A stretch of 64,000 bases of DNA. It comes from Cliona cf. orientalis. Its lineage: Eukaryota; Porifera; Demospongiae; Clionaida; Clionaidae. This document shows, one piece after another, positions 2,355 to 48,808 of the stretch. The stretch covers positions 27,726,044 through 27,790,043 of the forward strand of contig OZ005689.1 in NCBI GenBank assembly GCA_963930775.1, in the 5' to 3' direction. A model generated the notes under the pieces. That model was given only the letters and a program-made list of their open reading frames with translations. It did no database searches and was not told the DNA's origin. The first letter of the stretch is position 1, and the number at the start of each line of letters is the position of its first letter. The position numbers and the translations under genes are program-made.

Positions 2355-2926
2355 CATGTATTATTAATGTTATTCCATGCCTTGTTAATCAAAATAAACT
2401 AATTGAAGTTGCCTTAAGTTTAAGAATGAATACACATAATATCTAGTACCAATAATGTAGCTACCTTGATACTTACCCTCAAATTTAACACATAGCTTAT
2501 ACACCAAACCTGTACCTAACACTTACCCCTCGAAGATGGAGTACTGTAAGCAAGTCAAAAGTTACCGTCCAACAGCATGCTCCGGGCAACGACACAGATT
2601 TTTATCTGCCTAAGGCCCTCAGTGAGCTTAAGCCACACGTGGCTTACCTATCACAGTAAGGTCTACCACCTCAGACACTGCCACCCTTATCTAGTAGTAG
2701 TCAGTGGATTCTCCTATTAGTGCCCACCACTGACCACACCAGAGAAGTTATCCGCCCCTCCCCCCAAAATTAATGCAAGACAGCGCCAAGTAAAAAAAGT
2801 CGATAACCATGCGCTACAAGGCGCGCGGGGTATGTGCTCTATGAGCTCTAGTTCATTATAATATTTTTATGGGTAAGCCAATGAGGAGAGGGGGCGATGG
2901 GCCAACAAGACAATTACAATAAGGGG
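2355..2926. other. No gene recognised
   Basis: Non-coding DNA after the RPA-like pseudogene. No open frame of interest and no inverted repeat was found. Confidence 0.5.
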
Positions 2927-3338
2927 CTTTGTCCAAAGTCCTTGTGGAAAAATTGTCATTATGACATGGGGGGGCAGGAGGTGATGTTTACAACTGCATT
3001 GTCAGCAGAGTTTAGCTTTAGTTGTGATTATGCATAGTCTAGTCACACCTCCAGCAGTGTCAAAATTTGACAGCTGTATCAAGCATTATGTAGCTAAAAG
3101 TGTGTACTTAGCTACAGGCAAGCAAGAAACTGCTAAAGAAGCATAGGTATGCAATATATTTATGAAGACATGCACTGTAGAATACAAGTGAATACCGAAT
3201 GTGTAGACTAAATGGAGCAGAATCAGTTTCAGTATTGAATCTATGCTGAAATGCTGTGACGTTAAGGGGGGGGGGGTAAAATTTAATGTTAACGCCATGA
3301 TGACATTAATAATTTTTCCACAAGGACTTTGGACAAGG
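2927..3338. mobile_element. MITE, about 410 bp, 24-bp terminal inverted repeats
   Basis: The left end reads GTCCAAAGTCCTTGTGGAAA and continues AATT (from 2931). The exact reverse complement closes the element at about 3311-3334. One further imperfect pair extends each end by a few bases (CTTT/CCTT). The inside is non-coding, with a run of G at about 3266. No convincing target duplication was identified, so superfamily is open. Confidence 0.8.
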
Positions 3339-9564: not shown

Positions 9565-10457
9565 CAACGTTGATCGGACATCGAACTTCTCACAGGCCTT
9601 CCTGATCCGCTCACACCACTTACGTATGGGATGACTGCCAGTGGTGGTTTCCTCTCATCCTCCTGGGATTCTTCGTCGTCTGGTTCCTCATCCGACTCCT
9701 CTGCTGGTGTTGATGGTTCCTGTATGCAGAGGAGATGGCACAGATGAAGGCAAGGGATAAACGTTCTGTTTGAAAGTGGTGGTGAGGTGTTTTTCCTCTC
9801 ACAAGTTCTCCTCCCATAGATCCTGGTCCTGTCGAAGAGACTCCTGTTGGCTCCCCTCTTTGCACTTGCTGGGTGGTGGGAGCTGAAGTGCAGGTACCTG
9901 TCTGTGTGCATAGGTTTCCTGAAGACAGCCACGTCCAGAGCACTCCCCTCCCTTCATGTTAGTTTGGTGTCGAGGAAGGGAAGGGAGCCGTCCCTCTCCA
10001 GCTCCATTGTGAACTTGATGGTGGGGTGTACACTGTTGAGATGGTCGACTAAAGGCTCAACCTCATCCTTCTCCATTATGCATCATGTGTCATCCACAGA
10101 CCGCTTCCAGAGCCTTGGTCTTGAGGGAGCTGACTGTAGTGCCAGCTCCTCGAAGAACTCCATGTACAAGTTGCCAACTAGTGCAGAGACGGGAGAGCCC
10201 GTGGCTGTGCCCTGCCTCTGCTTATAGAATTCACTGTTGTAGCTGAAGTAGGTTGACTTCAGACTGATCTGAAAGAGCTCTGCGATCCTCTCTGCTGGTA
10301 ATGGGGTCCGTTCCACCAAGCCCTCCTCCTCCTCCTTCGTGAGTTTCCTGTGGATGACGTCTACTGCTTCATCGATGGGGACATTGGTGAACAGTGAGGA
10401 GGTGATATCAAAACTGACGAGAGCCTCCTCCGCCTCCACATGCACATGCTTCATCAT
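9564..10457 (-). pseudogene. Penelope-like reverse transcriptase (fragment)
   Basis: Read on the minus strand, it shows VSFDITSSLFTNVPIDEA, FYKQRQGTATGSPVSALVGN, LYMEFFEELALQ, LWKRSVDDT, then TIKFTMELERDGSLPFLDTK and FRKPMHTDRYLHFSSHHP, and ends with VIPYVSGVS. These are the fingers, palm and linker landmarks of Penelope RTs. The catalytic box reads SVDDT where YVDDT is usual; the aspartates are kept. Several interruptions are present. It is the inverted 5' half of the element. Confidence 0.88.
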
Positions 10458-10462
10458 ACCTA

Positions 10463-10970
10463 CAAAGTGCTTGGAATCAAAACGTGTGAACTGGTCTTCT
10501 CAACTCTCTGCTCACTGCTCACCAAAGTGAAGGATCCCCTCCCCAAGGAGAAACTGGTAGGTGTGGACTACCTGATCCCCTGCCAGTGTGGTAAGGTGTA
10601 AGTTGGGGAAACGCAGAGGCGCCTAGAGGCGCGAGTCAAAGGGCACTGGGATGCATGCATGCAACAAGGGAGACACGTGGAAGTCTGCCATAGCCGAGCA
10701 TCAGTGGGACCAGCAATACAAAGTGGATTGAGACACAACCAGAGTGCTGGATATGGCCGCCAGATGTGTCCAGCTAAAGATAAAGGAAGCCTTGCACATC
10801 GAGAGGACCCCGGCAAACAACAGGCTCAATCGAGACGGGAGCTATGAGCTACCAGGCTATTGGATCATGACGATGAAGAAGCTAGGGGGCGGGGACAACT
10901 GCGCTAGTGCTAATGATGTCGGCGCTCCACCCTCTGCACCCGGCTGCATGGGCGTGAGAGCGCAGTAGCC
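10463..10970 (+). pseudogene. Penelope-like GIY-YIG endonuclease (fragment)
   Basis: Plus-strand translation gives LLTKVKDPLPKEKLVGVDYL, IPCQCGKV, VGETQRRLEARVKGHWDAC, then VLDMAARCVQLKIKEALHIE and TPANNRLNRDGSYELPGYWI. The CxC plus 'Y-VGET.R.L..R...H' pattern and the 'KIKEALHI' helix are the GIY-YIG nuclease found at the C-terminus of Penelope-like elements, where it nicks target DNA. The tyrosine position before VGET is a stop here, and frame changes occur at about 10700. It is in the opposite orientation to its RT half. Confidence 0.88.
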
Positions 10971-21032: not shown

Positions 21033-21433
21033 TGCATGGCAAGTGCATTTTACTACAGGTACCATAATTATATGAACAAGACATGGTCTCTGCGCATTTA
21101 AGGCCTGGGTCAATGTAGAATTAACTACTTATGTTGCTACTTTCATGACATATAGCAATGTATAAGTAAATTCTATAAGCATGATTAAGTAGTCATATGA
21201 TAGAGTAGACTTAGCAGTTTTGAAAAATCCTAATTAGATTAGCTAATTAGTAAACAAATGACGTCACCAAAGCAACGACATCACCCGCTTTAGTAATGCG
21301 CTTATCAATGTAATGCCCCACCTAACCTGGGTCGGGACGTGGGTGGGGATTGTAGGGGGTTTGACACCAGTTTGGTCCCCCCGGGGGAGGGGCAGTAGAG
21401 GGGATTCGTATAGACCATATTGCGCATGCGTCA

Positions 21434-24400
21434 ATGCCACGAGGTCGTTCGAGGCATATTGCAATGGCTACCAAAACGGTCGTTGTTGACTTTCAGGGGC
21501 ACTCAAGAATCGTGTCCTTTCAGGAAAGCGAAAATGAGATAGAGACTGCCACAACTGCCGTGGAAGAAATCTTTCATGATGTTTTCTCTTCCCCGCCCGC
21601 TCCTTTTTTCCTACAAGTACTGAACGATACTTTTAATCGGTATGTGGACGTATTACGAGGACAGCCTATTCCAGACAAGAGTGTGCTTAGAGTAGTTCTC
21701 AAGGAAATCCAGGTGAGCTATTTAGTAAAAGTGTACAATCCAGGTTAAATTTACCTATAAATAATTTATATAAATATTGAGTGATTCTTTCGTTAGTGGG
21801 TTTTTTTGGCAAGTCCAGGCATGGAATGGATACATCCCTGTTGAGGAATAGTTTCAGTTGAGTTTTGTCAACCCCAATAGATTGTTTAATAAATTGCAGG
21901 GCTGCATTTTGTGGAGGAGGGGGGTAGAGGCTTTCAGGCATATCAAAGCCACACTCAAGGGAGGGGGGGGGGCAATTGCACCCCCTCCCCCAAAATGGCA
22001 CCCCTCCTGATCATTCCCACAATGCATAAATTAATACATGCCAGTACCCCAGTAAGTAATTAAAGTACTACTGTACCCATAGTCTTGTGCCCAGACCCCA
22101 CCCAAGGATTGTGTCCAAATTCACCAGACCTCTTTCCCTCCTTTGAGGGTCGGGTCTGGGGACGGGAACAGATAATCCAGTTCATACAACTACCAGTGCC
22201 CCTGGCGTAAGTATGTCTCCTCAACAGGAATGTATCCCTATTTTAATACTGGAATAGCCCATAATTTAGAGTTAGTGTAGATCATAATGTGGCACCTGGA
22301 GATGTAAAATTTAAGTATCCCATCTACCTCAATTTACAAGCAATTTTCTTGATTTCTTGGTATTAATTTTTGTGTTCTTTTCTCTAGCCATCTGTAGTAT
22401 CATCAGCAGATGTGGTGATTTCGGACGTTGTGATCGTCACAACTTCAACCATGGCTCCTGTGTGTACAACAGTGACCCCTGCTAAAGAATCTTCAAGCAC
22501 CACTGGTTCTCATGCTGGATTGCAACTAAAACTGAAAATTGACGAAACTGGGATTGGTTTAGTGCAAGAAGCCCTGTCTAGCGAGGTAGGTTCATGTAGC
22601 CCTTGTGTGTGCGTGCAGTTTCATGCAAGAATGTGAAAGTAGCTGTGGTTGTCACTCCCCTTGTAATTAAACCAGTGGCCTTGTTTGTGTACTGGAGGTG
22701 GGTGTAGCACCTTGCTTTGGAGTGGCTACAACAAAGGGTTACAGTTTAGGTGGTGACATCTCCAGCTATCTATTGCAACTATGCAAGGCATTGTACTGAG
22801 GGTATAGTATGTGTATGAATGAATTTGAGCTTTATTGATTGCACTATGGCTACTAGTATCATCACTTTTTTCTTTAGGAAAGTGATCCTGAAATGGATAC
22901 ACAGGAAATCAAGAGGGAAGCAATATTCTTCAGAAAAGAACCACTGTCTACTTACCATGTTAAAGTCAATGAAGCATCACAAGCGATATGTTTGCGCAAA
23001 CCGAGTATGCTAAGGAAGAGAGAATTGCTTGTGCTAGCCAAACAAAGTGTTCATGATAGTGGGTATTCCTACCGAAAAGGAACATCGAGGTCCAAAAGAT
23101 ACGGGAGTGCTGTTGATGGTGCTACCAAACCCAAGCGTGTCAAGACAAGTACAGATGAACGTGTTACCCGTATGAAGACCATCAAGGAAGAACTGAGTGA
23201 CTTGCAGAATAGAGTATCATTTAAACGAAAGAGGTTAGATGCTGCTGAGGTCACAAAGAATTACAAATTGTGTGACCAACTTAGTGAGGAGATAGCAGAA
23301 TTGAATAAGTCAAAGCGACACCTCGAAGTGGAGTTAGGCTTGTTACAGAAGAAAGAAAAAAAGTCGAAACGTTACTATCAACGTAGAAGAGAAAGTGACA
23401 GTGACAGTAGTTCCTCTCAAATGTCAAGTTCAAGTGTTGCTTCTACGTGGGAGGGTAGCCCTCCTTTTAATCCTCCAGCAAAGACGGCATCATTTCGCTT
23501 CACAAGTCCTCCTGCGGTATCAGTCAGTGCACCCAGTACTCCTAGACCAGTATCTCCATTTGGGAATGTCCACAGCATCTCCTCCTGTCCTCCTCAAGTT
23601 TCTTCACAGCAAGAAGCAGGTATTGGCAGTGCGGCTACTGATCAAGCAGCCCCAGAACTTCAAGGCAGTTCTGACCAACCTGTAGCTCAATCCTCATGTG
23701 ACAAGCAATCTCAAGAGCAAACGTTTCCTGGTATCCAAGAGTCGTGTAAGGAGGCCACCAGTAGCAGTCAATCTTTTTGACCAGGCCTCCCTGTGAACAA
23801 GATTGTACAGGGAGGCCGGAACTAATGCACACTTTCACCACTTTCCTTAGAAGTAATCCCAGCAACTACATACACGTATCTGACACAGTTTCTGTTAGCA
23901 AACTCAACATGTCCATTAAGGAGTACATATTTACTGCTGAAGAGTACTGTCGAGTAAAGCATACGATGCCTTGCAAAAGATGTCTACCACTGATCACTGC
24001 AGCAAGAGCAATTGCAGATCGAGGAATTTGTCCACTCTCTCACATATACAGATATTCCCCAGTGTGAAGTATAACAACAAAGCTGCTAAACAAAGACTCC
24101 TACAAATCCCAGTTGCAGCAATTAGGTGTGGAAATCCAGAAAGCGGGGTATCCAGAATATATCTAATGGAACGTCTTTCCGATTGCGACCATCTCTATCA
24201 AACAATTATTGACTTTTATCTTGATGGTATGAAGAAATCTCCTAGTAGCAGTCCGCACATGACAAAGGATCATCTTGGACAGTTGCTCTCACTTGCACAG
24301 ACTGATAAGGAACGAGAGTGCATTAAGTATGCCGTTTTCAAAACATCTGGACTTTCTGCTTCAGCTGCACGGAAGTTTTACGGATTCTCTGACATGACAC

Positions 24401-26936
24401 GAAGAGCAGACAGAGTTGAGCAAGCAATGGAAGAGGCACAGTGTATACGTGAAAACATTCAAAGCCTTGCAGCCATACAAGACAAAGCCATCTTGTTGTC
24501 ACATGGAATTAGCTTGCCTAGCTCAAGTAGTAGTTCTGACAGTGAAGAGTCTATTAACTCAGATGACGATAGTGCTCCTGTTGGTCTGGAATACTTCAAA
24601 GTATCGGACACAACTCCAGGTCTCAAGGCTGTCGACTTCACTACCCTTCCACTGAAGGTTATAGTAGAAAAAAGTAAATCCAATTTTTTCCAGGTTGCTG
24701 AAGAGGTAGAAGCTCACTTTGAAACTTCTCTCACATTTGATAAGCTGGATATTCTGTTCCAGGAGATATCTTCACTCCCAGCATCATGTTATGACTCTTT
24801 CCTGATGAACCAATCTTATCGTGCATTCCTTGTTAGTAGTGCACAATCGTTCACTGAAGAACAACATGCCGACCTGGTGAATGGACTTGTCATCACTGAC
24901 TCAGAAAGTGAAAATCCTGAGCTGTGGTCTCAAGCTGCAGAAGTGGAGACTGAGAAGAGGAAGCTGGTTCAAAAGCAACGGATGATTTTGCAACGAAAGA
25001 TACGCAGACAACGTGCAAAGCGTATTGCCACAGCCAATTTTCTGTCGAGGAAGGTATCAAAGAAAGCACGTGGAATTGTTAAGAAGTTCCCTAATATTGG
25101 AAAAGCCATAGAAGATTTCATTTCAGAACGCAATGTTGGTGCTGACTTTTGGCGTAGAACTGGGGTGCTGACCTTTGACGGGAATCGAAAAGTGAAAGAA
25201 AAAGTCACCTATGAAAGAATTAGGCAACATCTCCAGAAACTGTATGACCATCCTTTCTCGTATGGTACAATAGTGCAATTGTGTGTAGCCAGAAATAAGA
25301 GGAGGAAGAGTGCAGCCAACTACCGTGGTCTGGCACGAGTAACTACCCGAAGGGCTCGCAAGGGTTTTACATTGCGGTTCAACCCAGACAGTCATTGGTC
25401 TGCAGCCCTTTATCGGAGCTTGAACTGGTTACAGTATCGTGACGGGCACAACATCCTGAATGTCAACCGCGATGATGCTTCAGGGTATCGCTTAGATACA
25501 CTTGCAACACATAACCAGTATGCTACTCCTGTAGTTGGAGAGACATTGACAACTCGTACAGATTATGTAAATAAATATTCAAGTGTCCTCCAGACCACAT
25601 CCTACAACTTTACAGGAAGCAACACTACAGGTGAGATGTGTGCAGGTGTTGTAAAACAGGCAAAAGTTTACCCAAAGAACCCTGCCCAGCATGCAGCTGA
25701 TTTTAAGAAGCTTGTTAGTGTACCAGAACTTGAACCAGCATTCACAAACCATAGTACTGGTCTTCCTAAACGAGTAGCGTGCATCAGGGTCGACGGGGCT
25801 GGAGATGAAGGGAAGGACCTGGGCATGTCGAAGTCCAGTATTGGTGGACACTTCACCACATGGAAGCATACACTGAAGCTACACTGGTGACTTCGAGAAG
25901 TAGCGGAAGCAGCTACCTGAACCGAGTTGAGCTGCAGAATGGCTGCCTTTCTCTCGCTCACGCCAATCTTTTTATTCCGTCCACCCTCAATGGATCTTGC
26001 TGCAGTGGTAGTGATATTGATAAAGAGAAGCTCACTCAAAATCTGATGTCAGCTGCTGAAGTCTACATTCAGAGATGCAACAATGCACCTTGTGGTGACA
26101 CAGAAATCCATCTTTACCTTGGAGCAGATTCATCAGAACTCCAAGACAGAAGAGAGCGATTGCTGAAATTTCTGAAAGGCTCACAAAAAGAAAAGGTGAA
26201 AGTGCAAAGGGAGCACCCAGAAGAGTATTCTAGTTTTGAGAGAGTGTGGAGCGTAAGAGAGCGGCATATGGTAAAGAATGTTCCACCACAATACGTGTTT
26301 TTTCTGCTCCCCTGTTATGAGCCTGGGTGTCCTCACCCAGCATGTGAGAAAGGAAAGCCAGAACATGAGCCAACCTGGTTTGAAAATGGGCCCCCAATTT
26401 CATACTTACCTTTTCCCGTCCCAGATACCAAGAAACCTTGGGGCAGTAAAGGATGTGATAGCTGCACAGGATTTTGTTCGGGTCACTACTTAAAACCCGA
26501 AGAGTCGTATCTTCAGCGCAGTCGATGTATCTCCGAGCCACCTTCACAGATATTATTGAAGCTACACAAATCCGTACAAGGATCTGTTCCTGAACAGACT
26601 CTACTTGCAAAAGCAAAGGAAGTACAACTGTCTATGAGCGATGTCAGTTTTTGGATGCAGCATCTTGACACCATACGTGAGAATCGCAAAAAGGGGGCGC
26701 AAAAAGCATTGGAGACGCGTCGGAAGAAGAAAGGAGCTTGCAGGAGGAACATTCAGCAGATCAGTGAATGGCGATGTGGTGTCTGTGACCGTCTTTATGA
26801 AGACAAAACCGAGGAAGAGGAGGTATGGATTGAGTGCAGCCAGTGTCAGTTATGGTACCATGTGGGGTGTGTGCATCTAACAGACATCCCTGATGAATAT
26901 TTTTGTCCTTTATGTGAAGACAAACCCCTGTCATGA
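21434..26936 (+). pseudogene. Spliced transposase-like gene with C-terminal PHD finger
   Basis: Exon 1 is 21434-21712 (donor CAG|GTGAGC; start MPRGRSRHIAMATK, or the inner ATG at 21464). Exon 2 is 22388-22585, exon 3 starts at 22878 (acceptor TTTAG), all phase 0. The N-terminal third is a coiled coil (RVTRMKTIKEELSDLQNRVS) and a Ser/Pro-rich tract. A Cys-rich segment follows (KHTMPCKRCLPLITAARAIA), then a basic region (RKIRRQRAKRIATANFLSRK). The likely catalytic part has VACIRVDGAGDEG and, after a frame change, SSGSSYLNRVELQNGCLSLA. The C-terminus is a full C4HC3 PHD finger: WRCGVCDRLYED, WIECSQCQLWYHVGCVHL, YFCPLCED. Three small lesions break it: a T-run one short at 23774-23778, an extra TG at about 24063, and a doubled GAAGG at 25807-25816. 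Otherwise it is complete, so inactivation looks recent. The family occurs in cnidarians and sponges; its TE nature follows from the TIR/TTAA frame. Confidence 0.8.
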
Positions 26937-27282
26937 GCATTTTTTGTGTGCATGCACTGTATTGTTATATACCTATTGTATCAATCACTACTATAATAAT
27001 ATCTTATATCATGCATAATTTGACATTCAATACAATACAATAATGATATTATGATATTGAAAATTCCGTCTTGAACACCTGAAAAGGAGGGGATTTGATC
27101 GTTAGAGTAGGACCAAGGGGTGGGGACATTTTTAATTAAGTAGTCAAATCCCCACCTATGCCCCACATCTGCCCCACCTAGGTAGGGTGGGGCTAAACAT
27201 TGATAGGCGCATAACATAAATCGATGGAGGCGGAGATCAAAATCACCCCTGATGGGCACCACACTCACACAGATGGTTTATA

Positions 27283-27649
27283 TCAATGTAAACTTACTGA
27301 CAACTGAAGGGGGTTCCAGTAGGTAGGCCAGAACAGCCGAAGCCTATATCTCACCGCTCTTCGAGGTCGTCAGAGGGACACGTTCACGATAACTACTCGG
27401 CGGTTTTATAACTTCCAACTTTCCCCCGCCGTATCTAACGTTTAATCATAGTAATTCAACTTATCCTACACTAAATAAGTCTGTCAAGCGGCGGTAAGAC
27501 CTCCGCCTCAAACGCTCTCTACTTTACCAACTATCTAGCTAGCTATACTGCAATGTATCACATGACTTTACACTACTATAAATGGGGCGTGGTCACGTGC
27601 GCTTGACGTTCGGTGTGCGCTATTTGGAATATCGCGTTCTGTACTGGAC
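27283..27649. repeat. 3' non-coding part of the TTAA element, repeated at 48447-48808
   Basis: From 'caatgtaaactta.tgacaac' to 'tatcgcgttct', the sequence matches 48447-48808 with moderate divergence. The second copy belongs to an internally deleted relative, not a separate family. Confidence 0.85.
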
Positions 27650-28264
27650 CCAGGCCTTAACTACGCGGAGGTGACTCACTTGTGATTCTGAATTAGTAAG
27701 CATTATTTTGCATGCATGCCCCCCATGTCTCTCCCTCCCACTCTCTTGTGTGCCCTGTCTTTCTCTCTCTCTCCCTCTTAATCTTTCTCTTCTCTCTTTC
27801 TCTCCATTTCTCTCTATGTTTTTCTCTCTCTCTCTCTCTCCCTCTCCCTCCCTACCCCTCTCTATGTTAGGTATACACATGCATTATTTATAATCAGTTT
27901 ATGCTTCAATTTCTTTACTACAATTCAGGATTTTCAAGATATACACGATTTTACAGGAGAACTAACTTCATGTAGGGAACTGTTTGTAGGTCACACTGGC
28001 TGTATAACTCTTGTATCATGATATTCATCTTTGTACATGTATCACTAAATGTTTATTGCATTTGTTTTGGTCAAAAAAATTGCAGTGATCCAGGGCATGC
28101 AAGGTTGGGGGAGGTGGGATAGGGCCACAAGTTAGGGTGTTGTGGTAGCACCCTAAGCTAGCACCCATTGGTGTGTCAAAACTTGTACACCCTAGGGTGT
28201 CAAATATAAACCATACTACTAGCACTCCTAAAGGTGTTACCATAACACCTTTTTTCTAACAGTG

Positions 28265-41063: not shown

Positions 41064-41616
41064 ATAACGTTGAGTCGAGTATCGAACCCCCTACTGAAAA
41101 ATCATATTTTAGCGCGAGTAGTCGGTTTAGACATACATACACGATGTACGCTTAATAGAGAGTGAAGTTTTGGCCCCACCCACTGCCAGCACGTTCGAGC
41201 GCTCAATCACAAAGCTAGCAAGTTATGAACACAGCGATTCTTGGACTAAGCTCTGTAACAGTTCATGGTAGTATGATCAGAAGCCATCGCTTGAAGAAAA
41301 CCATGGAAAAATAGCTGACTTATTTGGCGAGACTCGCTTCGGTCAAGGTCAAGAGTCCGACCGAACCCGTCTCAGTGGAACATCGCAGTGTTGAGTATAT
41401 AGTCGATCTGGTGCAGCTGGCTATCCGAAAACTGGTTGGTATAAGTTAGTTCTAGCCATATAGAGCATGGAACACTCTTGATCGAACGATGACTATTACT
41501 ATCGTCGTTATTGGGCGCATGCGCTTATTAGACAATACTTAATAACAGGAAGGAAGTATGCGCTTATAAAATATGCGCTTAATAAGCATGTGCACTTATT
41601 AACCAGACTACGGTAT

Positions 41617-41777
41617 GATAGAGTAGACCTAACAGTTCTGAAAAATCGTAATTATATTAGCTAAGTAGTAAACAAATGTCACCAAAGTGATGACATCACC
41701 CGCTTTAGTAACCTAAATCGATGGAGGCAGAGATCAAAATCACCCCAGACAGACACCGCACTCACACAGATGGTTTA
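41617..41777. mobile_element. Internally deleted relative of the TTAA element, left part
   Basis: 41617-41714 matches 21197-21296, then jumps directly to sequence matching 27222-27284, so the whole gene (about 5.9 kb) is missing. It ends at GGTTTA, where the CAGTGCTCC element is inserted, and resumes at 48443. The left TIR is lost. Confidence 0.85.
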
Positions 41778-41917
41778 CAGTGCTCCACAGAGAGTATTTT
41801 TAGGCTTTGACCCATAACTTTCTTCTGCAATGGTTTTGAGTGCTCAAACTTGATTCACACACTCTTCTATCAAGCTCCTATCCACACCTGCTGTGAGACG
41901 TTATTAACCACTAGTGT

Positions 41918-42224
41918 GTTTTTATGGCTTCTCAAAAAATAGTCATGGGAGAAATACTTTAGGATATTATCTTTGGCATACTTTTTAGTAGTTAATGGCT
42001 AACTCAGAGCCATTAAGGCCTGGGTCACAGTGGATTGTAGAGTATTTACTGATAACTTCAGAGTATTTACTGATAACTGTGTTTTTATGGCTTCTCAAAA
42101 AATAGTCATGGGAAAAATACTTTAGGATAATATCTTTGGCATACTTTTTAGTAGTTAATGGCTAACTCAGAGCCATTAAGGCCTGGGTCACAGTGGATTG
42201 TAGAGTATTTACTGATAACTTCAA
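41918..42224. repeat. 163-bp tandem duplication at a TTAA-element border
   Basis: 'gtgtttttatggcttctcaa' to 'gtatttactgataacttca' occurs twice, 163 bp apart, and each copy includes a TTAAGGCCTGGGTC end (42013 and 42176). The duplication therefore followed insertion of the TTAA MITE. Confidence 0.9.
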
Positions 42225-42950
42225 TGCCATATATTTCAGCATCTGTACATCCTATGAACTTCTACTATGCACCAACAGAAAGTTTCATCTTCATCCTCTT
42301 TTGTTGTTAATTAACCGCAGGCCATTACGTCAGTGTGGGCAGGGTCGTAAGTGTATGTTTGTAAACAAAATCGAAAAAGGCGGAAGGTATGCACGGCTCT
42401 GACGCCGACCTTAACTATTCCATGCAGTTCATATTTTAGTATACTAATATCTCACAGGATAGATTAGCTACATATTGCTTACTTTCAGAGAAATGGCGAA
42501 AAGTGTACATTTCTTCTTAAAACTCGGCGAAAGTAGGTTCTTTCGAAAATCTACCCTATGATATAAATCTAGTCGATCTTAACCTATCTAGCCTGTCAAC
42601 TTGATCGGCAGTCGCCTCTTTCTATTCCGCCTAGCTGCACCACTGCTAACTAGCTGACTGCAGCATATTTATCATGTGATCGGGTGGCCACGCCCACTTC
42701 AATAATGATGATTCTGGCCAAAATAGAGCAAATTCGACCGTCTCTACTGCCGAAAACAACACAGGTAAGCTACTAAATGTAGCGCATGCATGTCACAAAA
42801 ATGAGCTAATATGCCAAGATGAGAGGTAATATGGTCGCTCATTATTGTTTACTAGGCACGGCCGGTTATATGACCATCGTTGTTACCATAGAAACATATT
42901 CATGAATTCAATTAACCCTGATGACCCTCGCCCGTTATCCGACCCAGGCC
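42180..42950. mobile_element. TTAA-type non-autonomous element, 771 bp
   Basis: GGCCTGGGTC ... GACCCAGGCC flanked by TTAA (42176-42179, 42951-42954), the same termini as the 6.56-kb PHD-gene element. The inside is non-coding and differs from that element, but the right 430 bp are found again, inverted, at 62760-63150. Confidence 0.9.
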
Positions 42951-43375
42951 TTAACCGTGCTGAGAAGTTATTGCACACCTATGGACCATCAAACAAAACT
43001 TGGTGCCTAATGTGAGGTCTTAATGATTGATTATTGAAGTTTTAATTATAGATTTGTACATTTTGAAGATATAGTGCATGATTTGCGACCTGCAATTCCC
43101 TTTTATGTATTGCTGTAAGACTAACTGTATGGCAATTATTTATACAAGTTTGACACTATATGCAATAACATACATAAGATACGATGACACAACTGTGTGA
43201 CCTGTGCTTTCCACTGAGGCATACACTATACAGTGACTGATTTGATTACTCTGTGGTAGCAATATTAACCACTCCTCACTGCATGATCAGTGTGTGCTTA
43301 TACATTCAACATTACTCTTGTCTCCATGCAGCTAGCTATAATTATATCTCTTCTGAAAATCCTTACAAATTATTG

Positions 43376-44635
43376 AAAATTTCCTTACTGTAGCTAGCTA
43401 CCAACCAAACAGGCACAGTGCATGCAACATACCTCTCCACGTATCCATCCCCTGTCTCTCTGGAAAATCCTTACAAATGGAAAGTTTCCTTACAACATAG
43501 TGCATGCATCATACCTCTCCATGGCCTGCACGTATCCCTCCCCTGTCTCTCTGGAAAATCCTTACAAATGGAAAGTTTCCTTACAACATAGTGCATGCAA
43601 CATACCTCTCCACGTATCCCTCCCCAGTCTCTCTGGAAAATCCTTACAAATGGAAAGTTTCCTTAAAACATAGTGCATGCAACATACCTCTCCACGTATC
43701 CCTCCCCTGTCTCTCTAGAAAATCCATACAAATGGAAAATTTCCTTACAACATAGCTAGTGCACGCAACATACCTCTCCACGTATCCATTCCCTGTCTCT
43801 CTGGAAAATCCTTACAAATGGAAAATTTACTTACAACTTAGTGCATGCACCATACCTCTCCACGTATCCATTCCCTGTCTCTCTGGAAAATCCTTACAAA
43901 TGGAAAATTTCCTTACAGCATGCATCATACCTCTCCACGTATCCCTCCCCTGTCTCTCTGGAAAATCCATACAAATGGAAAATTTCCTTACAACATAGTG
44001 CATGCAACATACCTCTCCACGTATCCCTCCCCTGTCTCTCTGGAAAATCCATACAAATGGAAAATTTCCTTACAACATAGCTAGTGCACGCAACATACCT
44101 CTCCACGTATCCATTCCCTGTCTCTCTGGAAAATCCTTACAAATGGAAAATTTCCTTACAACATAGTGCATGCATCATACCTCTCCACGTATCCCTCTCC
44201 TGTCTCTCTGGAAAATCCTTACAAATGGAAAATTTCCTGCATGCATCATACCTCTCCACGTATCCCTCCCCTGTCTCTCTGGAAAATCCTTACAAATGGA
44301 AAATTTCCTTACAACATAGTGCATGCAACATACCTCTCCACGTATCCCTCCCCTGTCTCTCTGGAAAATCCTTACAAATGGAAAATTTCCTTACAACATA
44401 GTGCATGCATCATACCTCTCCACGTATCCCTCCCCTGTCTCTCTGGAAAATCCATACAAATGGAAAATTTCCTTACAACATAGTGCATGCAACATACCTC
44501 TCCACATATACCTCCCCTGTCTCTCTGGAAAATTCTTACAAATGGAAAATTTCCTTACAACCAAATAGCTATCCCTCCCCTGTCTCTTTGCAATTGGAAA
44601 ATACTTAGCTACAAATGGAAAAATTCCTTACGACC
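43376..44635. repeat. Minisatellite, about 14 units of 72-92 bp (mostly 82)
   Basis: The unit contains 'catacctctccacgtatcc', 'cctgtctctctggaaaatcc', 'ttacaaatggaaa' and 'ttccttacaacatagtgcatg'. About 14 full units plus degraded edges. Length differences come from small indels around 'acatagtgcatgca'. The open frames across it (all reading YLSTYPSPVSLENPYKWK) arise because some units keep a multiple-of-3 length; no gene is implied. Confidence 0.97.
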
Positions 44636-44985
44636 AAACACTGGAAAAAATAATTAGCTAGGATGGCATTGGCACATAATTAGAGCGTGAAAATTAGGAC
44701 TCCGGAGCAGGTGGCGTGTTCATTAGAGAAGCGCCTTAATTAGAACACTAAGTTCTGCAATGACACAATTTGAAACTCCAAATACTTGACATGAAAACCT
44801 AATCAGGCAATGAATTATTAAAAGCAGAGTTTACGCCATCATTTACCTTAATCAAGGACAATTTTATTTACAGGTAGCTACTAAATTTAGCGAAATTAGC
44901 GAATTACAAAGGATATGGCTAAATTTTAATAAGTTCATCCAAGCTGATGCCAGAAGTAGCTAGCTAGCACTTAAAAATTTCGAGG
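44636..44985. other. No gene recognised
   Basis: AT-rich non-coding stretch between the minisatellite and the SINE. Confidence 0.4.
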
Positions 44986-45090
44986 AGAAAAAAAAGAAGT
45001 CGCTCCAAATGTAGCTAAAATGAGATTTGAACCCGTTACATACTGCTCCACACACAAGGGCTCCAACCACTAGACCACCGCTGTATATTG
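44986..45090 (-). mobile_element. tRNA-derived SINE head
   Basis: On the minus strand the A box TGGTCTAGTGG is followed about 35 bp later by the B box GGTTCAAATCT, in the order of an RNA polymerase III promoter. The cloverleaf is imperfect. Sequence beyond (toward 44870) may be the SINE body, but no second copy exists in the window to set its 3' end. Confidence 0.6.
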
Positions 45091-45468
45091 TCACTGATGG
45101 CAATCGTTACCTTTCATAGACAAAGCCCTAGAGACCAACCCTGCTAATCACAGGCAGCCCCTCCCATCCATACCGTGCATACATGTAGGGTATATAAGAG
45201 TCACCCAACCTGATGCACGGGCTCGGATTCTCACATGAACAGCATCAGCTTGGGTCAGTTGTTATTGAATGACGCAATTATACTGGAATTTTGTGATTTT
45301 CAATGTCATGTAGCTATCTCTGAAACTGCTCGATGGACATCATTCCAGTCTCATACTGTAGAGCAGCACAAGAGCTATTGAATGGTGTTTGAATAATGGG
45401 AATCCATCCAAGGGAACTAAATTGTGCCACTTTTTGCACGAGGCACGTTTTGTGAGTGCTTGCGAGTA

Positions 45469-46307
45469 CAGTGCAACCTCGATTATCCGGACCTCGTTTA
45501 TCCGGAACCTCGATTAACCAGCGACCTAAAAATACATTACCACGCATGCGCAGAACGCGTGACCGATGATCTTTTGTGGGTGTGGTTGTAGATTGAGCGA
45601 TGAGCTATCAAGGGGTGGTCTCTCCTATACCCACTGTGGTTAGATCTGCGACCGGGGTCACAATTTGTGACCGCCAAAATTCGGCTGTGACCTAGTGACC
45701 ACGCTTAAAATCGTCGGCTATTAGCGCCATAGTACTATAGTATAGTAGTAGCCGCGGGCCGCGCGTGCTCACGTGAACATAATTATTAAGTAACGTAGCT
45801 AGCTAGCTAGCTGTAGAACGTCGAACCAGAACATGTCATGTGGATATGGAACGTTTAAAGGGCGAGTATATCATCTCTGAATATGTACCTACGTATTATT
45901 TAGCTAGTATTTGACTTCTCTGACATGTCTGACAACCTCGTCCATGTTTGTGCTCTGTGACCGCGGAATAGCAATTTTAGCGCCGTGACCTGGTGACCAC
46001 TAATGAAAAACCTCGGTGACCCAGTGACTACCCGTGACCCCGGTCGCAGATCTGACCACACTGGGTATAGGAGAGACCACCCCTTGGCTATGGACTCTAC
46101 AGGCTTGCCTTGGCCAAAATTGACTGACCAAAGTACTTTCTTGAACACTGCTGGCCATGATCATACTGTAAAGGTATCGTTTATAGGCTAGGTATCGTAA
46201 ACCAGGTGAGAAATGTAGGCATTTCAGTTATCCGGACATCATCACTTATCCGGTATGGCAGCGATCGGCCGGTGGACAAAGGGGTCCGGATAATCGAGGT
46301 TGCACTG
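45469..46307. mobile_element. pogo/Tigger-type MITE with CAGTGCAACCTCG ends
   Basis: TIR CAGTGCAACCTCGATTATCC / GGATAATCGAGGTTGCACTG flanked by TA (45467-45468, 46308-46309). 'TATCCGGA' repeats occur near both ends. CAGTG...TATCCGG termini are characteristic of Tigger-type elements. It is interrupted by a second MITE at 45610-46085. Confidence 0.9.
45610..46085. mobile_element. Nested MITE with 52-bp TIRs
   Basis: AAGGGGTGGTCTCTCCTATA... pairs with its inverse at 46034-46085 with two mismatches in about 52. The inside repeats 'gtgacc..gtgacca' motifs on both strands. High TIR identity suggests a younger insertion than its host MITE. Confidence 0.85.
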
Positions 46308-46309
46308 TA

Positions 46310-47787
46310 GCATGCACAAAAGTGCTTACCATGGAGCTAATAAATGTCTCTGAGATATTGGACTTCAACAAGTAGAAAGTAGAAGAGTTACTCTGTCTTA
46401 TTTGGAGTCCAAAGAATGAACTGAAAACACGGCAAAAAATTGGAATGTGGCACCAGAATCAGATAGCTACGCTTCCTGGATCTGTGTGTTTAGGACGACT
46501 GGGGTGAACTTACCCATGTAGCTATACACAATTACCAAAAAATCACAAATAATAGTGTTATGTGAAAATTACAGTTGGAGGAAAGACTTTTTGCATAGCT
46601 AATTAGAAAAAATTAACTTTGAGAGCACACACATGCCAGGCTACCTAGTAGCTAAGTCAGTCTAGATTTATAATTAGAAATGTACTATCTGAGATGTCTA
46701 AATTTTTATCACTGAAAGCTGTCTGATAGCTAGAGCTAGGTGTCAAAACTTGAGACTATAATCCGCTAAAATTATTAAAAGTGAAATTCATAGACTCCAA
46801 CTTTTCTTGAACAATTCCAGGGACATAGATCAGACCCACTAGACCCGCCTAACGTTAAATTAAAAATTCCACCCATACCACACCCAATATCATCAAATTT
46901 TGATGATTATCAATGCCTAAAATTTCTAAAGCATAAATTTGCAAGCGGAGTAGACCTCTTATAGTGTTGTTGGCTACTGCAAAACCAAAGTTTGTAAAAC
47001 ACTACCAGAAGCTGCTTGTTCAATCATTTTACCACCAATAGTTGATTAGTTGTAGTACTATACCAGTGTTTATGCTAGTGTCTGGACCTCATCCGGGACC
47101 AACAATTAGTCAATACAACTGTAGTAAATAGAGCCTTCCGGGAACTAGGACAATTGCTAAATATCCGGGACTGTCCCAGTATCTGTTGGAGCCTATGGAA
47201 ATTCGCTAAAATTAAAGACTTAGTAGCATTAAAGTGCGCGAGCATGGGCGTGAGGATTGGATAATTCAATTAGTGAATCGTAAGGGGGTGTGGCGAGGAG
47301 GCCATACGAGAGTTTTTGGTCAAAGGTGGGCGTGTCCAGAAAGAGCCAGGGATATTTATGCGCGTGTAATTAGCAGCCGGAAGTGGCCCCTGAGGAAAAG
47401 AACGGTAATTACCCACACCAAAGCAAGATCAAAGCATTCTTCAACCGCAACGAAAAAACTGATTAGGCCTAATTTATCGTGCAGGCGCGTTCCAGGCACT
47501 GTGTGCAGAGTGTGTGCGTGTGCGTTTTATTGCTTCCGATTTGGCGTGGCTTAATTGTAGCCCTAATTAACTTAAGGTAAGTACTTGAACATGCATTTCA
47601 AATAGGCCATTGATAGCTAAATTATTGTTTCAACTTAAAATTCTGATGTAATGAAAATCGTCTTACATCTGCACACATGCGCAACTCTAATATCGCAAAT
47701 AGTGCAGCATATGATTTTGAAGGACCAGTATAGTTAGGATCCAAACTTCCATGATTGCTATAGTTAAGGGCCCACTTCTTAATATAT
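46310..47787. other. No gene recognised
   Basis: Non-coding. Around 47080-47175 there are 'ccgggac' phrases resembling the inside of the hAT-like MITE at 11452, but no TIRs. Confidence 0.4.
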
Positions 47788-48202
47788 GTGAGCGAATTTG
47801 AGAAAAGGGGTAACTTCGCGCATTTTCTGAATTTTTGTTTTAAAACGCTTATATCTCTGGAACCACAGTAGCTATGAATTTCAAACCTGGCATGAATATT
47901 CTTTCATCATCCTGCTACACTCGCTGCAAATCGCAAGCCCCGCCCATTTCCGGTATGAGCGGGGCGAGCGTGCACGTCGATCTCATTCGAAAAACGCCGT
48001 TTTATGCCCCTCTTTGGCGGCTAACCGCTCGGGATAGGAGGCTTGCTCAGACTTCTAACAGATCTGTGAAGTAGAAGGCCCAAACTGCTAGCAAACCAAG
48101 TCTGAAGCCTAAGGCTCGTACTGGCTTGAAATGGTGATAGGTTGAAAAGTGACAAATAATCGCGTTTTGCGCGAAGTTACCCCTTTTCTCAAATTCGCCC
48201 AC
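47788..48202. mobile_element. MITE related to the outer element, copy 1
   Basis: TIR GTGAGCGAATTTGAGAAAAG + GGGTAACTTCGCGC (34 bp) at the left and its near-perfect inverse at the right. The first 20 bases differ by one from the TIR of the 16.3-kb element. Flanks do not show a clean duplication (ATAT / GTTA). About 85-90 percent similar by eye to 60031-60448. Confidence 0.9.
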
Positions 48203-48442
48203 GTTAGCCATGTCCCTAAAGTTTCATATTTCTCAAATTTCGAACATTAATGTTACTCAGAACGGCACTGGCATGCCAAAATGTCAAAAAATGCAAAATT
48301 GTGGAACTAATTAAATTCACCAAAGTGACCCTATTGACCTATAGTTTCAAATGAATACCTTGATGGGCAGTGTACGTGACAGGATTACAAGATCAGTATT
48401 TTGAGCCCATTTCTAAATCTACTCTCTTTGTGTGGAGCACTG

Positions 48443-48808
48443 TATGTCAATGTAAACTTATTGACAACTGAAGGGGGTTCCAGTAGGTAGGCCAGAACAG
48501 TCGAAGCCTATATCTCACCGCTCTTTGTGGTCGTCAGGGGGACACGTTCACGGTAACTACTCAACTGATTTATAACTTCCAACTTTCCCCCGCCTTATCC
48601 AACGCTTATTCATAGCAATTCAACTTATCCTACACTAAGTAAGTCTATCGAGCGGCGGTAAGACCTCTGCCTCGAACGCTCTCTACTTCACCAACTTTCT
48701 AGCTAGCTATACTGCAACGTATCACTTGACTTTATACTACTATAAATGGGGCATGGTCACATGCGCTTGACGTACGGTGTGCACTATTTTGGATATCGCG
48801 TTCTCTAC
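48443..48808. mobile_element. Internally deleted relative of the TTAA element, right part
   Basis: Continues the fragment at 41617-41777 after the CAGTGCTCC element. It matches 27280-27648 and stops about 15 bp before the expected GACCCAGGCC end, at the edge of the fossil gag region. Confidence 0.85.

Follow-up and report, generated by a model that had tools for sequence, protein, structure and literature searches.

The sequence analysed here, called the window, was a stretch of 64,000 nucleotides from the genome of the sponge Cliona cf. orientalis (contig OZ005689.1, forward-strand positions 27,726,044 to 27,790,043). It holds an inner transposon of 5915 bp (21297-27211, forward strand) with a single gene, nested in an outer element with TTAA flanks (21098-27660 with the flanks included, no strand assigned; ~645 bp without the insert, or ~650 bp). 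The gene contains two overlapping open reading frames (ORFs): ORF1 encodes a NAB-type protein, and ORF2 encodes a putative transposase with a PHD finger. The junction between the two frames, which carries a slip site followed by a hairpin, is the main subject of this work.

The two reading frames and their junction

As read from the sequence, the gene had three exons separated by two GT-AG introns with clean junctions. ORF1 comprised 449 amino acids on the forward strand, of which 83 were encoded by exon 1 (21464-21712), 66 by exon 2 (22388-22585) and 300 by exon 3 up to the 0-frame stop (22878-23780). Exon 1 was similar in two relatives, C1_24 (E value of 5e-7) and C8_68 (two pieces, E value of 0.006 each), and exon 2 in one, C17 (E value of 7e-11). 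A PB1-like reading of exon 1 received no support from Pfam and was rejected. Exon 3 contained an NCD2-like region, a coiled-coil-like region judged by eye and a low-complexity tail. The match to NAB conserved region 2 (NCD2, PF04905) was located at 22938-23090 on the forward strand and covered profile positions 74-125, with an E value of 1.7e-8 and a score of 35 bits against a cut-off of 25. It also exceeded the cut-off in copy L010, and the domain scan of ORF1 revealed no Myb/SANT domain but NCD2 instead. Furthermore, PF04905 matched 14 places in the genome. The best was a frame of 631 amino acids at G000:C13:8662406-8663389 (E value of 1.9e-18), which is probably the host NAB gene. This frame showed weak similarity to ORF1 beyond NCD2 (residues 89-274, 23%, E value of 2.6e-4), and the ORF1 of copy L012 matched the NAB1 structure 2yuf weakly (E value of 0.09). 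The NCD2 region was common to ORF1 and the co-repressors NAB1 and NAB2; unlike them, ORF1 had no other detectable NAB domain and adjoined a transposase frame inside a transposon. The presence of NCD2 suggests contact with transcriptional regulators.

ORF2 (23774-26936, forward strand) was in the −1 frame relative to ORF1 and consisted of a DDE-like transposase region and a PHD finger. It was broken twice in the window, near 24.05 kb and 25.85 kb, and the ORF2 frames of intact relatives were 1038-1275 amino acids long. The core was well conserved, at a mean column identity of 61%, with the motifs INRDDAAGFRLDT, RVDGAxDEGPxH and SSYLNRVELQNG. The candidate catalytic residues, all on the forward strand, were an aspartate in the NRDD motif (25471-25473), a second aspartate in the RVDGAGDEG motif (25792-25794) and a glutamate in the SYLNRVELQNG motif (25926-25928), which gave the pattern DD42E by comparison with relatives. 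In an alignment of 15 rows (A1), the second aspartate and the glutamate were 42 residues apart in all 12 rows (11 copies) with both motifs. AlphaFold models of the whole protein (predicted local distance difference test, pLDDT, of 54.4) and of the core (pLDDT of 67.6, predicted template modelling score of 0.65) displayed the strand order of RNase H. The first aspartate was placed in strand 1, the second at the end of strand 4, and the glutamate was in a helix in the whole-protein model. When both models were compared with the PDB using Foldseek, chains of IstA, Mos1, RNase H and Hermes ranked high, none of them significantly. The transposase is a putative RNase H-like DD42E enzyme, which would be catalytically active. 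No transposase family of Pfam matched any of 14 core members at E values up to 10, a NCBIfam search with three proteins gave nothing relevant, the BFVD fold search gave nothing significant, and no relative was found among viral contigs.

The C-terminal PHD finger (26775-26915, forward strand) had a C4HC3 arrangement and matched PF00628 with an E value of 1.9e-5 and 25 bits against a cut-off of 24. It was above the cut-off in the window, L010, L015 and L021 and below it in L019. PHD fingers in the PDB also matched, the closest being those of BPTF, TAF3 and similar proteins that read histone H3. In the intact copies on C8 and C18 (L017, L018 and L051), an expansion of short HRPEGGGEQS-like repeats was present between the transposase and the PHD finger, and it was missing from the other rows of A1.

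A sequence-only reading of this DNA had described a spliced gene with clean junctions, the VDGAGDEG and SYLNRVELQNG blocks, a coiled coil (seen here by eye) and a PHD finger, all of which were found again; the NAB-type domain of ORF1 had been missed. It had also counted three small lesions in the gene. Two of these are the real frame breaks of ORF2, and the third, the stop at 23778-23780, belongs to a conserved feature of the family described below.

Protein searches gave 68 and 53 places in the genome, and the best 30 of each led to 30 gene copies. The ORF1/ORF2 junction was recovered in 20 of them; because the filter accepted only copies whose similarity began at the first residues of ORF2, others may have been missed. 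In the window, the junction consisted of the slip site T TTT (23774-23777, with the 0-frame codon TTT at 23775-23777), a 6-nt spacer (23778-23783), which here holds the 0-frame stop TGA (23778-23780), and a hairpin (23784-23817) with arms at 23784-23794 and 23807-23817 and a loop of 12 nt, all on the forward strand. In each of three intact relatives, ORF2 overlapped the end of ORF1 one base back. T TTT and 6 nt preceded the stem arm GCCTCC in 19 of the 20 recovered junctions, the arm being GCCTCT in L013-L015. Among the 13 distinct junctions, ORF1 was open for ten codons upstream of TTT in all, and ORF2 followed TTT in the −1 frame in 11; the two exceptions, L031 and L019, had small indels in the loop or stem. 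In L015, a −1-frame stop stood directly before ATC TTT and a 0-frame stop right after TTT, which confines the shift to 7 nt. The position of the 0-frame stop varied, from directly after TTT in several copies to 16 codons further on in L011, and T TTT was the only constant part of the slip site. Accordingly, the hallmarks of programmed −1 frameshifting were present together: an overlap from the 0 to the −1 frame, a slip site, a fixed spacer and a downstream structure, conserved across homologues. The bare pattern of slip site and 5' arm was too short to be specific (108 matches in comparison with 87 for a control) and was not used as evidence.

The hairpin was analysed as RNA. The fold of 23768-23825 had an energy of −26.8 kcal/mol and a z score of −4.96, and single-sequence folds of the 13 distinct junctions gave stems of roughly 8-13 bp. 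Across these sequences, standard pairs filled 94.3% of the cells in 11 named stem pairs, compared with 37-62% when the partner was slid. Cells changed on both sides numbered 14, a value reached by none of 500 shuffled alignments (5.1 ± 2.0), and the covariation score was 0.255 against 0.136. In addition, synonymous sites were examined in 68 ORF2 columns with an invariant fourfold-degenerate residue (nine rows, at least five present). The third position agreed in a mean of 0.31 of sequence pairs, and only one of the 68 columns was fully frozen, namely that of the proline in the hairpin (six rows in that column). All 13 junctions had CCT for this proline, and in 12 of the 13 the codon that follows ended in C. 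The frozen proline codon and the pairing data indicate, therefore, that the stem appears to be constrained as a nucleic acid, beyond the needs of the protein.

Taken together, the sequence features make it highly probable that a eukaryotic DNA transposon with its own ends, a TWA target duplication and a DD42E transposase with a PHD finger here uses programmed −1 ribosomal frameshifting. Several results weigh against it. TTT was missing from one of the 20 copies (L016, which also carried stops), and the slip site was the tetranucleotide T TTT, whereas eukaryotic −1 sites canonically have the heptamer X XXY YYZ. In the stem, four of the 11 pairs never varied and were uninformative, and the outermost pair, which varied only by unpaired cells, was unformed in four of the 13 sequences, where the spacer was 7 nt. 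Four pairs had changes on both sides, a count reached by 47 of 500 shuffles; further pair types numbered nine against 9.4 in the shuffles, with no excess; and the shuffles took no account of relatedness among the sequences. For the transposase, model confidence was modest, and the stretch with the glutamate had a pLDDT below 50 in both models. The best folds, IstA and Mos1, had E values of 0.02-0.08, none was below 0.001, and unrelated chains were interspersed. For ORF1, NCD2 was below the cut-off in L012 (E value of 7e-4) and absent from the scanned piece of L017.

Two other ways of producing the second protein were considered for the junction. ORF2 might be translated separately, starting close to the ORF1 stop either by termination and reinitiation, helped by the hairpin, or by internal entry. 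The ORF1 stop stands directly at the overlap in several copies, and an ATG follows just after the hairpin in the window and L010 and lies at the hairpin base in L017. However, this ATG was not conserved, being missing from L011, L012, L015, L028 and L034; in 11 of 13 junctions, the −1 frame was open all the way from the slip site; and the position of the 0-frame stop shifted while T TTT and the distance to the arm stayed fixed. Separate translation is unlikely on these grounds. The frames might also be joined in the RNA, either through splicing, if the junction holds an intron that is small or alternative, or through slippage of the polymerase along the T run. Introns do occur further upstream in the gene, and in the window, C1_24 and C8_68 an AG follows a T-rich tract, but C17 has no AG between TTT and the stem. 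L011, L012, L020, L021 and L034 have only four T, which is short for polymerase slippage. Neither process predicts a stem at a fixed distance with frozen synonymous sites, and joining of this kind is quite improbable.

Ends of the gene-bearing transposon and the outer element

The inner element was bounded by TGCRCCTATCAATG and GCCCCAC, and the same sequence bounded the gene in relatives, including copies with identities down to 44-69%. Between the outer ends and the gene, a further pair of inverted arms was found, 73 nt long and 73% complementary. The 5' terminal inverted repeat TGCGCTTATCAATGTAATGCCCCACC (21297-21322, forward strand), opposed by the 3' terminal inverted repeat TGCGCCTATCAATGTTTAGCCCCACC (27186-27211, reverse strand), was part of these imperfect arms. 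Target-site duplications of TAA, to which no strand applies, were located directly outside (21294-21296 and 27212-27214), and the direct 3-base repeats outside the inner ends were TTA in C1_24 and TAA in C8_68. Genome-wide, the terminal pattern had 995 matches with up to three mismatches, compared with none for the control. Among 100 listed terminal sites, all exact, the TWA was complementary in 16 of 16 facing pairs less than 10 kb apart and in five of 12 more distant neighbouring sites.

The flanks of the 30 gene copies were read for ~1.5 kb beyond each protein match, a range in which a missing end is no proof of absence. A 3' terminus TGCRCC (at least 11 of 14 bases) with TWA in the correct orientation was found in 26 of the 30, and a TTAA-GGCCTGGGTC end (at least 12 of 14 bases) in one, the window copy only. 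For C17, C1_24 and C8_68, no TTAA-GGCCTGGGTC match of at least 12 of 14 bases was found in 11-11.5 kb, and C17 and C8_68 had one match of 11 of 14 each. Furthermore, the copies on C2 and C9 were 99.94% identical over 4711 bp and diverged at the terminus, with differing versions of TWA. As read from the alignment, the point of divergence is an independent mark of the element boundary, and near-identical copies at different sites suggest recent movement. By these comparisons, the gene belongs to a DNA transposon of the cut-and-paste type with TGCRCCTATCAATG..GCCCCAC ends and a 3-bp TWA duplication. The C17 copy (L069-L070) also had an inverted repeat of 312 bp on either side (2732-3043 and 10189-10500 of the merged stretch), which itself contained TTAA. 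Since the TGCACC 3' end is located between these long inverted repeats, they were taken as a separate nested element. A large palindrome was present upstream (1-1743 of the merged stretch), and further nested elements are apparently involved.

TTAA was present at both 21098-21101 and 27657-27660, each with 10-bp GGCCTGGGTC inverted ends, as the sequence-only reading had reported. A comparison of the joined flanks of the inner element with the remaining window sequence revealed a second outer-element copy at 41614-41777 (forward strand). This 164-base match had 89% identity and crossed the insertion point uninterrupted, with a single TAA and no gap there; its one gap, of three bases, was elsewhere. 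It serves as the empty-site control for the TAA duplication, and therefore the transposon of the gene is 21297-27211, and the TTAA/GGCCTGGGTC element is the target into which it was inserted, as far as sequence comparison can tell. The rest of the second copy (48443-48808, forward strand, 91% identical) was displaced by ~6.7 kb of other DNA (41778-48442), with TTTA/TAT at the break. Across the genome (216.8 Mb), the GGCCTGGGTC 10-mer was counted 350 times, compared with 65 for the reversed control word, and many of the first 100 listed sites were facing pairs ~500-1100 bp apart. The outer elements at 21098-27660 and 42013-42954 look like members of a large family of short elements, with those 350 end-word occurrences genome-wide. 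Their 5'-GG..CC-3' termini and TTAA flanks fit non-autonomous elements of the Kolobok type. In the element at 42013, the left end was tandemly repeated (42017 and 42180). A stretch of the outer element was searched in plasmids without a match.

The sequence-only reading had proposed that the gene belongs to a little-described TTAA family, Kolobok-like or separate, with its own PHD transposase behind GGCCTGGGTC ends, inactivated here through three small lesions. The gene does have TTAA and matching inverted ends on either side. TTAA is duplicated by both Kolobok and piggyBac, and Kolobok termini are 5'-RR (PMC9587614). Against this stand the empty site of the outer element within the same window, the occurrence of TTAA-GGCCTGGGTC in the flanks of one gene copy in 30 compared with the TWA/TGCRCC end on 26, the three relatives without such an end over 11-11.5 kb, and the position of the stop "lesion" at a junction common to distant copies. 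We consider a TTAA transposon of this kind extremely improbable. Accordingly, the outer ends proved not to be those of the gene, and the Kolobok-like assignment found no support, as the element of the gene duplicates TWA. The proposal keeps its DNA transposon and its little-described PHD transposase and loses the TTAA family. Copies of the gene outside the TTAA frame, which it had named as evidence to the contrary, were the rule (29 of 30 without TTAA-GGCCTGGGTC in the flanks read). Its expectation that active relatives may exist agrees with the intact ORF2 frames and with the 99.94% identical copies at different sites. Nested elements can lend a gene false ends, and this locus is a case in point.

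Comparison with known transposons

PIF/Harbinger elements (PHIS superfamily) are described as having a 3-bp TWA duplication and two proteins per element (PMC4482050). The inner element shares both features. However, its core had no sequence or profile similarity, its second protein was NAB-like and not of the Myb/SANT type, and its ORFs overlapped by −1. An element of this kind with the NAB/PHD gene as captured cargo was therefore weighed, TWA being the hallmark of PIF/Harbinger (PMC4482050) and DDE_Tnp_4 having at least 143 matches in the genome. A comparison by eye placed none of these 143 listed matches inside the 30 gene stretches, and the nearest was ~3 kb past one 3' end. The same ends bounded gene copies only 44-69% identical; PF13359 did not match any of the 14 core members at E values up to 10; and no alignment of the catalytic region reached an E value below 1e-4. 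In hhalign, the probability against four DDE_Tnp_4 transposases of the same genome was 0.16%, whereas a control of two against the other two gave 100%. The cargo explanation is very improbable.

Zator also has a 3-bp target duplication (PMC10045372) and is grouped with IS630-Tc1-mariner (PMC7386202). The inner element resembled Zator/ISAzo13 in the 3-bp duplication, and Mos1 was among the best, non-significant, fold matches of its core. No PF07592 match was found in the 14 core members. The only ISAzo13/Zator-like match found in the genome (G000:C1:21248860-21249183) was degraded, with a PF07592 E value of 9.5e-5, and hhalign against this single degraded sequence gave 0.3%, a value without a positive control. 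Likeness to Kolobok and piggyBac was confined to the outer element, with its TTAA duplication and 5'-GG..CC-3' ends; the gene-bearing element, in contrast, duplicates TWA and has other ends. The duplication at the transposase-bearing element was TWA in the window, C1_24 and C8_68 and in 16 of 16 close pairs. The piggyBac family of Pfam did not match the 14 members at E values up to 10, and TWA was found instead of TTAA. To our knowledge, Pfam contains no model of the Kolobok core.

PHD fingers on transposons have precedents, and the term appears in PMC4411706 and PMC6446971. Such fingers have reportedly been found on transposon proteins of the RAG1-RAG2/Transib type and of some Mutator-like elements, and RAG2 carries one. 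The inner element has a transposon-encoded PHD finger in common with these. Unlike in them, the finger here is the C-terminus of the transposase itself, together with TWA and DD42E; the sequences were compared through Pfam only. In this genome, too, PHD fingers seem to occur on proteins of other transposons, judging from the frames. Frames ending in a PHD finger adjoined DDE_Tnp_4 copies at L075 and L077, and that of L075 read, by eye, as YqaJ-type nuclease-like.

In frameshifting insertion sequences (IS1, IS2/IS3 and IS982) and in the gag-pol of retroelements, two ORFs overlap by −1, an RNA structure follows the slip site, and in the insertion sequences the fusion is the transposase. The inner element has the same arrangement, but it is an intron-containing nuclear gene of a eukaryote, with T TTT, a 6-nt spacer and a NAB-type ORF1. 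Similar unnamed proteins are presumably present in gene catalogues of cnidarians and lancelets. By sequence, the superfamily would not be Harbinger despite TWA, and there is a fair chance of a new one. The full proposition, a separate eukaryotic superfamily (DD42E, TWA) that makes its transposase only as a −1 fusion and whose ORF1 shares descent with the animal NAB co-repressors, has about an even chance of being right.

Proposed mechanism and significance

In the mechanism proposed here, transcription by the host would yield one spliced mRNA for two overlapping proteins. Most ribosomes would make ORF1 by normal translation, running through T TTT near its end. In cells, a minority would slip back one base on TTT, 6 nt ahead of the GC-rich hairpin, and continue into ORF2. 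The product of the slip would be an ORF1-ORF2 fusion that carries the DD42E RNase H-like transposase and the C-terminal PHD finger. If the analogy with frameshifting insertion sequences holds, the transposase would be kept scarce and tied to ORF1 in this way. The coiled coil of ORF1 could mediate assembly, and ORF1 may oligomerise or recruit chromatin partners. The N-terminal part of ORF2, with a Cys/His stretch and the helical RERECIKYA..SGLT..AR region, may bind the ends, and cutting and joining at TWA, staggered by 3 bp, would be the work of the DD42E core. Finally, the PHD finger may read histone H3 at the target and so direct integration towards active chromatin.

Programmed −1 frameshifting limits the supply of recombinase in many bacterial insertion sequences and retroviruses. 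A literature search, with Repbase and most subscription journals outside its coverage, found neither a eukaryotic cut-and-paste DNA transposon with programmed −1 frameshifting nor a NAB domain on any transposon. The family has dozens of copies, some of them near-identical, and its signal (T TTT, 6 nt and a hairpin) is compact and portable, which makes the question directly testable. Moreover, the NAB-type domain ties the transposon to a family of transcriptional co-repressors and raises the direction of exchange, capture or source. If the shared descent is true, either a NAB gene was captured by the transposon, or an element of this kind gave rise to the NAB family.

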